The notes beneath the pieces were generated by a model that was not told the DNA's origin, did no database searches, and saw only the letters and a program-made list of their open reading frames with translations. A program made the translations under genes and the position numbers. A DNA stretch of 64,000 nt from Treponema sp. (GTDB lineage: Bacteria > Spirochaetota > Spirochaetia > Treponematales > Treponemataceae), in contig JAFLSQ010000001.1 in assembly GCA_022510865.1 (NCBI GenBank), forward strand, positions 1 to 64,000. The letters run 5' to 3'. Positions 44,979-59,744 of the stretch are shown one piece after another; the first letter of the stretch is position 1, and each line of letters starts with the position of its first letter.

Positions 44979-46340
44979 ATGGCAAAAAAAAGCGGCTCAA
45001 TCATGTACAAATGCTCAAACTGCGGATATTCTCAGCCCAGATGGTTAGGACGGTGCCCCGAATGCGGAGAATGGAACACCTTGGAAGAGATAATCATCGA
45101 TAAAAACGCGGTGACGGCGGCAGGACGCGGAAGCGAGCAGGCGCAGAAACAAAAGCCTGTTCTGCTTGGCACGGTCAAGGCGCAGCAGAATTCCCGCATC
45201 TCAACCGGAATCGCGGAGTTTGACCGGGTGATTGGCGGCGGCGCGACAAAACGCTCGGCAATCCTCCTTGGCGGCGAGCCTGGAATTGGAAAATCAACTT
45301 TGCTTTTGCAGACTGTGGCGGGTGTCTCCAAAAACGCGGGAGCAAATCAAAATGTGCTTTATGTGAGCGGCGAGGAATCGGCGGCGCAAATCAAAGAGCG
45401 GGCGGACAGGCTCAATTTGGACTGCTCGAACGTGCAGATTCTATGCACAGCGCGGCTTGAGGATTGTCTTGACGCGCTCGATTCTTTAAATCCGGTTTTC
45501 GTAATCATCGATTCAATTCAGACAATTTATTCGGCACAGGCTGGAATAATCCCCGGGACGGTGAATCAGCTCAAATATTGCGCGAACGAATTTATTGCAT
45601 GGGTAAAAGAGCGGGATTCCGTGCTGATTATGACGGCGCACGTAACGAAAGAAGGCGCGATTGCAGGCCCAAAATCTCTGGAGCACATGGTTGATACTGT
45701 GATTTCTTTTGAGCACAACAGCGATGACGTGCGTTTTCTGCACGCCCAGAAAAACAGGTTCGGCTCTGTGGATGAAATCGGAATTTTCAGCATGACAGAG
45801 AAAGGCCTTGCGCCAGTTTCCGACCCGTCATCGCTTTTTCTCACACGGCGGGATAATCAGAGGCCAGCCGGAGTCGCGTGCACGCCGGTTTTTGAGGGAA
45901 GCCGGGTCTTTCTTGTTGAGATTCAGGCCCTGACCGTGCCGGCAAAGGCAAGCACATCCCGGATTTACAGCGAGAAAATCGATTCGGCGCGGGTGGCTCG
46001 GATTGCGGCGGTGATTGAGAAGCGGTGCGGGCTTGTTTTTTCTGATCAGGACATTTATGTGAATGTTGCGGGCGGAATAAGGCTTGCGGAAAGCTCGATT
46101 GACGCGGCCCTGGCTGCGGCACTTTATTCCGCGCGGACAGACCTTTCTGTGGACGCGAACACCGCAGTTTTCGGAGAGCTGAGCCTTGCCGGTGAAATCA
46201 GGGCGGTGGGGAAGGCGCGGCAGCGCATAAAAGCCGCCGAGAATTTGGGCTTCACGAACGTAATCACGCCGGATGACGACGATGGAATGACAAAAGTCGG
46301 CGATATAAAATCACTTGTGAACGCGCTTTTCAAAAAATAG
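44979..46340 (+). CDS. radA: DNA repair protein RadA
   Basis: A 453-aa RecA-like helicase that processes recombination intermediates. It has an N-terminal C4 zinc finger (YKCSNCGYSQPRWLGRCPEC), Walker A GGEPGIGKSTLL, the RadA-specific KNRFGSVDEIGIF motif at about 264, and a C-terminal Lon-like domain (about 285-453). The start is preceded by CAAGGA. It is not in an obvious operon. Confidence 0.97.
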   Translation: MAKKSGSIMYKCSNCGYSQPRWLGRCPECGEWNTLEEIIIDKNAVTAAGRGSEQAQKQKPVLLGTVKAQQNSRISTGIAEFDRVIGGGATKRSAILLGGEPGIGKSTLLLQTVAGVSKNAGANQNVLYVSGEESAAQIKERADRLNLDCSNVQILCTARLEDCLDALDSLNPVFVIIDSIQTIYSAQAGIIPGTVNQLKYCANEFIAWVKERDSVLIMTAHVTKEGAIAGPKSLEHMVDTVISFEHNSDDVRFLHAQKNRFGSVDEIGIFSMTEKGLAPVSDPSSLFLTRRDNQRPAGVACTPVFEGSRVFLVEIQALTVPAKASTSRIYSEKIDSARVARIAAVIEKRCGLVFSDQDIYVNVAGGIRLAESSIDAALAAALYSARTDLSVDANTAVFGELSLAGEIRAVGKARQRIKAAENLGFTNVITPDDDDGMTKVGDIKSLVNALFKK

Positions 46341-46363
46341 CGGACTTTTTGAGCACACTGTAT

Positions 46364-46433
46364 CAAAACGCGCATAAAAACTGTGATTTTTTGACACAAT
46401 CTTTTAAAAATGCGGATGATTCTGCGCGTTTTG
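46364..46433. promoter_or_regulatory. widely spaced inverted repeat, candidate enhancer site for the sigma-54 promoter
   Basis: CAAAACGCGCA (46364-46374) and TGCGCGTTTTG (46423-46433) are perfect 11-bp arms 48 nt apart. They lie about 145-215 bp upstream of the -24/-12 elements, the usual place for activator (bEBP) sites. There is no T tract, so it is not a radA terminator. Confidence 0.5.
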
Positions 46434-46577
46434 TTCACATAACGTACTTTTCAATTTTTTGGAAAACATCGCGTTGCGGGAAATTTCTGGGGATTATTCG
46501 GGCTTAAAATCGGCAAGGCAAAAAAATCCCGAGAAAAAGTAATAAAAATCGCAAAAAAAGCAGAAAAATCCGAAAGT

Positions 46578-46593
46578 TGGCACGAAACTTGCT
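46578..46593 (+). promoter_or_regulatory. sigma-54 (RpoN) promoter of hsp20
   Basis: TGGCACGAAACTTGCT: the -24 GG (46579-46580) and -12 GC (46591-46592) are 10 nt apart, as required, and both boxes match the consensus TGGCAC-N5-TTGCW. Transcription would start near 46604, directly before a GTAAGC/GCTTAC hairpin (46605-46622). Confidence 0.9.
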
Positions 46594-46648
46594 TTAAGTA
46601 TGGTGTAAGCCATGGCGCTTACGAAATAAAAATAAAAGAGGTAATACT

Positions 46649-47083
46649 ATGAACGAACTTTCAATTTTCAACACGCTTTTTGACGATGTTTTTGGAGGTA
46701 ACACCTCTGCGGCGGTTATGCGACGTACTGGTTTTACCGCGCCAAAAGTTGACGTAATTGAGGAAGACAATGCTTATACATTGGAGATGGAGCTTCCCGG
46801 AAGAAGCGAGAACGACATCAACATTGAGCTTGACCACGACAATCTGACAATCGCGTCCAAAGAAGAGGATGTGAAAGAGGAGAAAGAGGTCAAAAACGAA
46901 AAGAAGGCGAAGAAATACCTTCTGAATGAGAGACGCTGCACAAGCTTCACGCGCCGCTTCTCTCTTCCGCAGGATGTGGATGCTGATTCAATCGCCGCGT
47001 CCTTCAAAAACGGAATCCTCACGGTTTCCATGAAGAAAAAGGCGATTGCCGCGCCCAAACAGATTGCGGTGATTGCAGGCTAA
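46649..47083 (+). CDS. small heat-shock protein (Hsp20 family)
   Basis: A 144-aa ATP-independent holdase chaperone. The alpha-crystallin domain spans about 32-130, with TLEMELPGRSENDINIELDH early and the closing ASFKNGILTVSMKK (the conserved G-x-L). A lysine/glutamate-rich insertion (about 74-92) is longer than usual. The ribosome site is AGAGGTAA. Its promoter is sigma-54 type, so expression should need RpoN and an activator instead of CIRCE/HrcA control; no CIRCE element is present. Confidence 0.95.
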   Translation: MNELSIFNTLFDDVFGGNTSAAVMRRTGFTAPKVDVIEEDNAYTLEMELPGRSENDINIELDHDNLTIASKEEDVKEEKEVKNEKKAKKYLLNERRCTSFTRRFSLPQDVDADSIAASFKNGILTVSMKKKAIAAPKQIAVIAG

Positions 47084-47109: not shown

Positions 47110-47145
47110 AAAAAGCGGGTGCTTTGAAAAAGTGCCCGCTTTTTT
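47110..47145 (+). terminator. intrinsic terminator of hsp20
   Basis: AAGCGGG and CCCGCTT form the stem, with CTTT/AAAG pairing nearer the loop, followed by six T residues. The stem is symmetrical with an A tract in front, so it can also serve the convergent pgsA-like gene. Confidence 0.85.
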
Positions 47146-56923: not shown

Positions 56924-58280
56924 AAAGTCTCCTGCATTCAAGATAAAAGCGTTTCTCATCGGCTTCGCCCATAGAAAAACTTTTTCTGGGAAGCGGGCCG
57001 CGCACCGTGATTGTCTCAAAAAAACTGTCCTTTGCAATCGGAGGAAGCAGGATTCCCACGGCGTTGTCGCGCGAGCCAAGCCTCAGCACCTCATCGCTTC
57101 CGTGGATATAATCGATTTCGGGCGCGGGACCGTCAGAAAAATCGCCCTGCAAAAATGCGTCAATTTCCGGCTGCAAATGAGATACCGCAAGGCCATCGAT
57201 TTTTGTCCGCAGCAGGACGTACTTCTGCGATTCCCCGGTTTTGTACGTAAAACCAAAATCCGTGCGGGAAGATTTCACAAGATTCTCCAGCTCCGCGGAT
57301 GACTGAACCTGGCTTGCAGTTCCGCCCAATTTTTGCGCAAGATGATTTATGAGCGTCTCGGCGGATGCATTGAAAATCACGCGGTGAATCGGCTCAAAAG
57401 TCAGGCCATCATCATAAATGCTCACAATCTCAACAAGCGCGTAGCGAACCGGGCAGTCCGTAAGCTCTTCTGCGGATTTTTTCTGCTGCGCCTTGAATTC
57501 ATCCCAGACCGCCTTTGCGGTTGCCAGCGAATGATTGCCGTCGCCCACCGCAAAAAGAAAAACAGAGCCGTCATCCGCCTGATTTTCCTGCGCGATTTTT
57601 GCGACCGCATCCGCTACAGAATCAAGCGCGGTATCGTCCTCAACCGCCCACCCTGTGATGTGCCCGCCATTGCACATCAGCTCGCCGTTGTAAAGCGGAC
57701 TGTTGTTTTTTACAAGCGAGCCAGTCCGTCCAACAAGCAGATTATTTTTGTCATTCACAAGAAGCATTATGTGCGGAAGTTCCAGCGGCGCGCCCCTGCG
57801 GATTTCCATCCTTGGCGGAATGCGCTCAACAATCGTTGCCTCGGTAGCGCGGATGTTCGCGCGGGAAAACGGCTTCCACTCGTAAGTCTCCAAATCAATC
57901 TGGGCGACAAGCCCTTTTCTTGTGCGCCCGAACGCGGTTTTTCGCTCCAAGTAAACCATGCACTTGCGCGGCGCGTCAAAAATGCCCGAATCCGGGTGGC
58001 AATCGGGGAGACCGCCAAGATAATCGGCCATAGTCCTGCGAATCTCTGCGATTTTTCTGGCTTTGTCCGGCGAATTCAGGTAAACTTCCGGCAAAATCAA
58101 ATTCAAGGTTGACGGCTTTCCGGCGGCGCACGCCTCGGCACGGCTCCAGTAATCCGCGTCCTGCGTGTACTGGTCGCACGCAATCACCGGCCAAGTGCCC
58201 ACATCAATATTTTTTGGCAAAAGGATTTCAGGCACGCCAATCCCAAAAGAATTCAGTTTTTTCTCGCAATGATTTTTCAT
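56916..58280 (-). CDS. DUF1015 family protein
   Basis: A 454-aa cytoplasmic protein of the DUF1015 (COG4198) family, recognised by RKGLVAQIDLETYEWKPF, VGDGNHSLATAKAVWDEF and LGSRDNAVGILLPP. The GDGNHS segment looks like a metal- or phosphate-binding loop, but the family has no settled biochemical role. The start at 58280 is the only one giving a family-like N-terminus; it lies 6 nt after TATACT and has no Shine-Dalgarno. It is divergent from rpoN, and its last 8 nt overlap the methyltransferase gene. Confidence 0.85.
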   Translation of the reverse strand: MKNHCEKKLNSFGIGVPEILLPKNIDVGTWPVIACDQYTQDADYWSRAEACAAGKPSTLNLILPEVYLNSPDKARKIAEIRRTMADYLGGLPDCHPDSGIFDAPRKCMVYLERKTAFGRTRKGLVAQIDLETYEWKPFSRANIRATEATIVERIPPRMEIRRGAPLELPHIMLLVNDKNNLLVGRTGSLVKNNSPLYNGELMCNGGHITGWAVEDDTALDSVADAVAKIAQENQADDGSVFLFAVGDGNHSLATAKAVWDEFKAQQKKSAEELTDCPVRYALVEIVSIYDDGLTFEPIHRVIFNASAETLINHLAQKLGGTASQVQSSAELENLVKSSRTDFGFTYKTGESQKYVLLRTKIDGLAVSHLQPEIDAFLQGDFSDGPAPEIDYIHGSDEVLRLGSRDNAVGILLPPIAKDSFFETITVRGPLPRKSFSMGEADEKRFYLECRRLFS

Positions 58281-58286
58281 AAGCCA

Positions 58287-58319
58287 AGTATACAGGCAAG
58301 ACGGAATTTGTGCTACAAT
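58287..58319. promoter_or_regulatory. overlapping divergent promoters of DUF1015 gene and rpoN
   Basis: Minus strand: TATACT (58292-58287), 6 nt before the ATG at 58280. Plus strand: extended -10 TGCTACAAT (58311-58319), 6 nt before the GTG at 58326. The two -10 boxes are 21 bp apart, so polymerase on one would block the other. Confidence 0.6.
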
Positions 58320-58325
58320 AAAACT

Positions 58326-59744
58326 GTGGCAAACAGAATAAGTCAGACAGCCTCGCAAACTCAGTCGCAGCGTCAGCGGATTTCCCAGCGTCAGATTCAG
58401 GCGCTGCAATTCCTTACGATGAGCACGGTTGACCTGCGTGACGCGATTTACAAAGAAGTGAGCGCGAATCCTGCGCTGGAAATTGTGCGGGACAATCGCA
58501 ATTCCGGCGAATTCCAGTATTCCGCAAAAGGCGCGTCGAATCAGATGCTGGAGAACAACGCGGACAGAAACGAGTCGCTGCAACATCATCTTATGCATCA
58601 GCTGAATTCCATGAGCCTTTCTGATGATGAGAGGATGCTCTGCCAGAAACTCATTTATAATCTGGATGAGAACGGATGTTACGGCTCGCTTCTTGCCCCC
58701 GAGACGCTGATTGACAGGACGCGCCCCCTGCAAAATCAGAGAATGCTGGCGCACTGCATTGATATGATTCAGCGGATGGATCCGGTGGGAACTTGCTGCC
58801 GCACGCTGGAAGAGAGCCTTTTTGTCCAGGCGCAGTTGAGCAATCAGGCGGATGACCTCACCCTTTTTATTCTGGACGGTCACATTGAGATGCTGAACCC
58901 GCCGGAGCCTCAGCGCATTCTGAAAAAACTTGCGGATTTTAAAACCGAGTGGCATAAAAAAGCGTTCGCCCCGGAAATCGCGCTGGACAAAATCACGCTT
59001 TCTCTGGATGCGGTGGAAAAATCACTGCGTCTCATCCTGAGCCTGAACCCGCGTCCTGCGCAGGGATATTCCGTGGACTCCCGCTCGGAATACGAGAAAC
59101 CCGATGTGATTCTGAGCGTTGAGCGGCAGGACGGCCGGCTTGCATCCGATGAGATATGGCGCGGACTTGTTGGCGGCGATGATTCCTGCCATTTTCAGAT
59201 AAAATACGCTTCCGGCGCGCTTCCAGAACTGCGCCTTGCCCCCGATTTTTCTTTTGATAAAGAGAATTACGCGCGCGCAAAGGCGTTCATTGAAAATCTT
59301 GCGTACCGCGAGAACACCCTTGTCCTGCAATGCTGCTATATTGTGAAAGCCCAGCGGAATTTCTTTCTGCACGGCCCCGGCAACCTGAATGTGCTCACAC
59401 GGCGCGCTCTGGCGCAGTCGCTCGGGCTGCACGAGTCCACGGTTTCCAGAATGTCTGCGCGGAACAACAGCAAGTACATCCAGACAGAATACGGACTTTT
59501 TCCCACAAGTTATTTTTTCAGTTCGGGCGTGTCGGCGGCGGACGGTGCGGAAAAAGTCTCGGCAGAAAAAATCAAAAAAAAGATGGCGGATTTGCTCGCC
59601 TCAAACCCGGATTTATCTGACCTGGATTTGACGCAGCATCTCAACGGCGAGGGCATAAAAATAGCGCGGCGCACTGTGGCAAAATACCGCGCTCAAATTG
59701 GAATAAAAAACTCGTACTCGCGCAAAAATCCGTCAGGATTTTAA
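58326..59744 (+). CDS. rpoN: RNA polymerase sigma-54 factor
   Basis: A 472-aa sigma factor for -24/-12 promoters. The Gln-rich N-terminal activator-interacting region (QTQSQRQRISQRQIQALQFL) is followed by the core-binding domain, a helix-turn-helix (about 360-385; AQSLGLHESTVSRMSARNNS) and the RpoN box ARRTVAKYR near the C-terminus, which reads the -24 element. The start is GTG at 58326, with no Shine-Dalgarno and a -10 box 6 nt upstream. hpf is next to it but convergent. Its target in this window is hsp20. Confidence 0.96.
   Translation: MANRISQTASQTQSQRQRISQRQIQALQFLTMSTVDLRDAIYKEVSANPALEIVRDNRNSGEFQYSAKGASNQMLENNADRNESLQHHLMHQLNSMSLSDDERMLCQKLIYNLDENGCYGSLLAPETLIDRTRPLQNQRMLAHCIDMIQRMDPVGTCCRTLEESLFVQAQLSNQADDLTLFILDGHIEMLNPPEPQRILKKLADFKTEWHKKAFAPEIALDKITLSLDAVEKSLRLILSLNPRPAQGYSVDSRSEYEKPDVILSVERQDGRLASDEIWRGLVGGDDSCHFQIKYASGALPELRLAPDFSFDKENYARAKAFIENLAYRENTLVLQCCYIVKAQRNFFLHGPGNLNVLTRRALAQSLGLHESTVSRMSARNNSKYIQTEYGLFPTSYFFSSGVSAADGAEKVSAEKIKKKMADLLASNPDLSDLDLTQHLNGEGIKIARRTVAKYRAQIGIKNSYSRKNPSGF

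Follow-up and report, generated by a model that had tools for sequence, protein, structure and literature searches.

The small heat-shock gene hsp20 of this Treponema sp. is very probably switched on by sigma-54 together with an enhancer-bound activator of the NtrC/AtoC class, and it appears to share this switch with a gene that encodes a 279-aa sigma-70-family factor. The model is built on elements read from the sequence, namely the promoter, the operator, the conservation and sharing of both, and a stem-loop at the start of the leader.

In the window, that is, the whole 64,000-nucleotide stretch analysed here, which belongs to a 2.28-Mb genome that is 92% complete, hsp20 (46649-47083, + strand) encodes a protein of 144 aa. 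Its match to Pfam PF00011 (E 4e-23; 81.9 bits against a cut-off of 20.8) places the product in the Hsp20/alpha-crystallin family, and its close relatives among named records come from rumen and gut Treponema, T. bryantii included. The 5' neighbour is a RadA/Sms-like gene (44979-46340, +), an open reading frame with Pfam matches to a zinc ribbon, a RecA-type ATPase and a Lon-like C terminus. Its stop codon adjoins the enhancer region, and its end also lies 5' of hsp20 in the nearest relatives. A likely ribosome-binding site, AGAGG, is located at 46637-46641 (+), and a terminator-like hairpin with a T tract at 47113-47145 (+), read from the sequence without a score from a scan, suggests that hsp20 is transcribed as a single gene. 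The sigma-54 gene rpoN (58269-59744, +; 491 aa), which the earlier note had placed about 12 kb away, lies 11.2 kb downstream and carries all three Pfam domains (Sigma54_AID, CBD and DBD); rpoN is matched in 57 of the 59 genus genomes. Additionally, in one relative (L215, G039:C40) a perfect sigma-54 site sits immediately 5' of rpoN itself, which suggests rpoN autoregulation in that species.

The sigma-54 promoter of hsp20 reads TTGGCAC-GAAAC-TTGCT at 46577-46593 (+). In agreement with the -24/-12 promoter proposed earlier, its GG (46579-46580) and GC (46591-46592) are 10 nt apart. It is the sole perfect match to TTGGCAC-N5-TTGCT in the window, where seven further sites with at most 2 mismatches correspond to the number expected by chance. 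The 2.28-Mb genome contains three perfect copies, compared with none of the reversed control sequence when no mismatch is allowed, and the remaining two copies lie 5' of the 279-aa sigma-70-family gene and of a gene for a 303-aa protein. A near-consensus site, ATGGCAC-N5-TTGCT, also precedes a DUF456 membrane-protein gene of the same genome (L002:1501-2023, contig C24). Judging from sigma-54 promoter geometry, transcription is predicted to start at 46602-46604 (+), roughly 12 nt beyond the C in the -12 element.

This promoter is conserved in the genus and outside it. Specifically, among the 86 hsp20 upstream regions collected from the genus, 85 contain a site with a score of 12 or more out of 14. 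The one that does not, L074, belongs to the downstream member of a tandem hsp20 pair (G028:C14) with one common sigma-54 promoter, located before the first gene (L069). Once near-duplicates are removed, all 74 regions score at least 12, 73 of them at least 13, and 54 reach the maximum of 14. Among control regions taken 700-960 nt upstream, 0 of 70 score at least 13, and shuffled sequences do so in 0.3% of cases. Elsewhere in the order, in further genera and families, the promoter is found at 27 of 30 hsp20 loci. Such conservation across an order is strong support for hsp20 being under sigma-54 control. Chaperones under sigma-54 had been called rare, which is true of bacteria in general but not of this order, where a sigma-54-dependent hsp20 is the rule.

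Further upstream lies a second conserved element. A motif search by expectation-maximisation, run from random starts with a reverse-palindrome model, recovers de novo the 17-bp palindrome TGTGTCA-N3-TGACACA in 97% of the 74 hsp20 upstream regions, with a log-likelihood of 480 versus 23 in shuffled sequences, and a model without imposed symmetry gives the same palindrome. The palindrome is positioned 70-300 bp upstream of the promoter, mostly 100-300 bp; where palindromes are paired, the commonest spacing is 23 bp, about two helical turns. Outside the genus, it is present at 28 of 30 hsp20 loci. A conserved dyad-symmetric site at 70-300 bp from its promoter has the layout of a bEBP enhancer. 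In the window, the predicted activator site is the 17-bp palindrome TGTGATTTTTTGACACA at 46382-46398, which has the best PWM score of the 64 kb (13.9 bits), and the outer half-site TGTATCA of a degenerate first enhancer site lies at 46359-46365 (+), aligned with TGTGTCA of L087-L089. In these three nearest relatives, the alignment shows TGTGTCA-N26-TGACACA kept just 3' of the RadA/Sms-like gene, with the distance fixed at 26 nt. The operator of the window is weaker than most, with 3 mismatches and a left site reduced to a half-site. Operator-like sites elsewhere in its own genome were set aside, being weaker than the site at the sigma gene (the highest, 18.5) and lacking a demonstrated promoter position.

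An upstream enhancer of hsp20 had thus been anticipated correctly, but it is this palindrome and not the pair of inverted-repeat arms that had been named, CAAAACGCGCA (46364-46374) and TGCGCGTTTTG (46423-46433); the palindrome and half-site overlap the left arm in part only. The perfect 11-bp inverted repeat does exist at hsp20, as an activator site formed by these arms would require. However, shuffled sequences contain roughly one perfect 11-bp inverted repeat of comparable spacing for every 64 kb, and the CAAAACGCGCA arms are absent from the three nearest relatives in the alignment. Likewise, the exact arm occurs in none of the other sequences among the 86 hsp20 upstream regions. We therefore regard it as extremely improbable that the arms are the activator site.

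At the other end of the regulatory region, the predicted mRNA would begin with the stem-loop UGUAAGC-6 nt-GCUUACG (46604-46623, +), a hairpin that the earlier note had also described. Its arms occupy 46604-46610 and 46617-46623, and the stem starts at the predicted +1 or right beside it. In relatives the arms covary, differing in sequence yet remaining complementary (TGTAAGC/GCTTAC, TGTCAGA/TCTGACA, TGTAGC/GCTACA and TGCCAG/CTGGCA), and the stem is significant singly (P ≤ 0.05) in 41 of the 74 loci, where about 4 are expected. In the centroid fold, the ribosome-binding site lies outside the stem and is unpaired. Since the stem leaves this site open, the stem-loop is less likely to be a thermometer than to stabilise the mRNA, probably at its 5' end. 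The presence of a conserved 5' stem-loop, along with weak sigma-70-like matches, would also fit a scheme in which hsp20 is mainly under an RNA thermometer or a sigma-70/HrcA-type promoter and the sigma-54 site is minor. This scheme is highly unlikely in our judgement, because the stem spares the ribosome-binding site, no Rfam thermometer or known RNA family is matched, and the conserved element before hsp20 is the -24/-12 sequence. In addition, the canonical CIRCE TTAGCACTC-N9-GAGTGCTAA has 0 sites in the genome even when 3 mismatches are allowed, which argues against HrcA/CIRCE control. This agrees with the initial impression, in which neither a CIRCE nor an RNA thermometer was seen at hsp20.

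The 279-aa sigma-70-family gene, located at 33.2 kb of contig C56 in the same genome, has the same combination of elements. Perfect TTGGCAC-N5-TTGCT sites were gathered from the 59 genus genomes, and the genes downstream of the retrieved loci were classed as 47 sigma-70-family genes (in two classes), 17 genes of the 303-aa family, 11 hsp20 genes and 17 others; the hsp20 count is partial, as most other hsp20 sites had already been collected and were left out of that set. In a held-out test, an operator model built from hsp20 regions only, and therefore blind to other promoters, detects the palindrome in the first sigma class, that of the 279-aa gene, at 34 of 36 promoters, versus 1 of 11 in the second sigma class, 0 of 17 in the 303-aa family and 0 of 17 other sites. 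Outside the genus, both the promoter and the operator are found at 29 of 33 sigma-gene loci. Sharing promoter type and enhancer, hsp20 and the 279-aa sigma-70-family gene thus form a predicted small sigma-54 regulon that is conserved across the order. As the palindrome is absent at the other sigma-54 promoters, those targets probably use another activator. A sigma-54 promoter located 5' of a sigma-70-family factor gene is also the arrangement of a Borrelia-type cascade; against NCBIfam, the 279-aa factor scores 255.7 for RpoS (cut-off 378.7) and 249.9 for RpoD (cut-off 354).

The other families found under perfect promoters have features of their own. The second sigma-70-family class (L134, L136, L147, L207, L208, L210, L212, L221, L225, L227 and L261) is about 30-37% identical to the first and lacks the common enhancer. 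The 303-aa gene (L005:1565-2473, contig C91), with relatives in L129, L131, L137, L141, L152, L213 and others, belongs to a fast-diverging family of 300-340 aa whose sigma-54 promoters are perfect but not accompanied by an enhancer of the hsp20 type. Weak similarity to sigma-70 region 2 and to HTH domains suggests that this family is a divergent sigma-like regulator, and there is a sub-threshold NCBIfam sigma70-ECF match (E 7.6e-6). It was rejected as a clear sigma factor, since profile comparison with a sigma alignment gives 12% probability and the Pfam matches are weak. A search for an upstream motif common to the 303-aa and second-sigma promoters gave none that is convincing, only low-complexity or G+C-rich patterns.

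Three proteins of the genome have a substantial sigma-54-activator domain, and the likely activator of the hsp20 regulon is the AtoC-like response regulator encoded on contig C58 (19.75-21.1 kb), acting with a soluble PAS kinase. Only this protein combines the GAFTGA loop with a Fis-type HTH (HTH_8), and its gene neighbour encodes a 405-aa histidine kinase that, as read from the sequence, has no obvious membrane segment and a PAS-like N terminus. The AtoC-like protein has a top-scoring match, at 54-78% identity and above the next homologues, in 116 of the 118 further genomes of the order that were searched, and its recognition helix is nearly invariant among 19 aligned sequences. We infer that it binds the palindrome. 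Enhancers of the NtrC/AtoC class, NtrC and GlrR sites among them, are tandem 17-bp palindromes 5' of -24/-12 promoters; the sites described here are likewise tandem 17-bp palindromes, with an HTH_8 activator that carries GAFTGA, and neither the TGTGTCA half-site nor the target set was found in the literature searched.

A different protein, either another activator or a modulating repressor, could instead bind the palindrome, with hsp20 and the sigma gene still driven by sigma-54. At 92% completeness, the genome could lack the gene of a further activator or palindrome-binding protein; two further activator-like proteins are encoded in it, and the binding specificity of the AtoC-like protein is a prediction. 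However, one of the two (L007:1075-2217, contig C13) has GAFTDA for GAFTGA, a degenerate N-terminal domain and no DNA-binding domain, and the other (L008:1477-2355, contig C35) is an AAA+ protein that retains the Fis-type HTH but has no GAFTGA loop. Moreover, the AtoC-like protein and the operator are both found order-wide, and palindromes of this length, spacing and distance from the promoter are typical NtrC-class activator sites. Binding by another protein is therefore rather unlikely, and the AtoC-like regulator is our preferred candidate. As to the other two proteins, that of L007 may act from solution on enhancer-less promoters, and that of L008 adjoins an S1-type-repeat protein resembling ribosomal protein S1. 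In a reduced 1.1-Mb genome from another genus of the family (G071), the AtoC-like regulator is kept with no hsp20 match and no close sigma-factor match, so AtoC must also have other roles; hsp20 and the sigma factor are absent together there, as if jointly lost.

Genome G116, which we take to be T. denticola ATCC 35405, has hsp20 at 1.059 Mb and the sigma gene at 0.960 Mb, the places expected for loci 1029 and 0937, and TDE1029 and TDE0937 appear to be the orthologues of hsp20 and the 279-aa sigma gene. In G116, hsp20 has the promoter TTGGCATATAAATTGCT and the operator, and the sigma gene has the operator with a weaker promoter (TAGCAT for TGGCAT). By microarray, TDE1029 (Hsp20) is up 9.5-, 8.5- and 6.7-fold and TDE0937 (sigma-70 family) 2.8-, 21.8- and 14-fold under heat, oxygen and osmotic downshift, respectively, and both are within the 39-gene core induced by these three stresses (PMC2965109). 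Through the presumed orthology, co-induction of hsp20 and the sigma gene is supported by these published data from a relative. That study proposed TDE0937 as a possible stress regulator, left the regulator of the core response open while noting that RpoS and sigma-B are missing, and, unlike the present analysis, mentions neither rpoN nor a sigma-54 promoter (PMC2965109). TDE1028, numbered beside the hsp20 gene, is co-induced in the same core set (PMC2965109); near 1.058 Mb of G116:C1 (L348), there is no clear open reading frame of at least 55 aa between the promoter and hsp20.

Taken together, we propose that sigma-54 RNA polymerase would transcribe hsp20 from the promoter at 46577-46593, and that the gene would stay silent until an NtrC/AtoC-class activator acts. 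Activator dimers would occupy one or two of the 17-bp palindromes about 200 bp upstream, loop over and remodel the closed complex with ATP, the AtoC-like regulator and the adjoining soluble PAS histidine kinase being the likely activator pair. The resulting mRNA would start with the short stem-loop, its ribosome-binding site free and its 5' end probably stabilised. The same activator and sigma-54 would also drive the 279-aa sigma-70-family factor, and a stress signal would therefore raise the chaperone directly and wider stress genes via the second sigma factor. Within this scheme, we infer the choice of activator, the nature of the signal, the role of the stem-loop and the steps that follow the sigma factor.

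Both a sigma-54-dependent small heat-shock gene and a sigma-54-to-sigma-factor cascade are known already, from E. coli ibpB and from Borrelia, respectively. According to Kuczynska-Wisnik 2001, as cited in PMC4370416, ibpB has a sigma-54 promoter, and in the account cited there sigma-54 adds to sigma-32 control. Here, in contrast, no conserved promoter signal other than that of sigma-54 was found, the enhancer is common to the targets and the regulon includes a second sigma factor. A 2025 survey of sigma-54 regulons names Planctomycetota and Bacteroidota as groups in which small heat-shock genes are enriched (PMC12316311), and our literature search found no paper joining Treponema, sigma54 and Hsp20. 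In Borrelia burgdorferi, also a spirochaete, the Rrp2-RpoN-RpoS pathway similarly uses an AtoC-like regulator and sigma-54 to switch on the gene of a small sigma-70-family factor; rpoS there is sigma-54-dependent, and Rrp2 is reported to lack specific enhancer binding upstream of rpoS (PMC3037356). The system described here differs in its conserved palindromic enhancer and in having a chaperone gene as a direct target, and the two sigma factors are likened by type. The soluble PAS kinase, the AtoC-like regulator and sigma-54 could even be the general stress switch of Treponematales, acting on the chaperone and the second sigma factor through one palindromic enhancer, and the ancestral, enhancer-dependent form of the Borrelia pathway, an idea that we offer as a possibility rather than an expectation.

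Stress regulation in treponemes is poorly known, and the shared promoter and enhancer tie a chaperone to a sigma factor and name a candidate activator, while the conserved operator is testable in T. denticola. The model would offer a testable explanation for the general stress response of Treponema and its relatives, and it suggests that the spirochaete RpoN-to-sigma-factor cascade predates the virulence pathway of Borrelia and extends beyond it.
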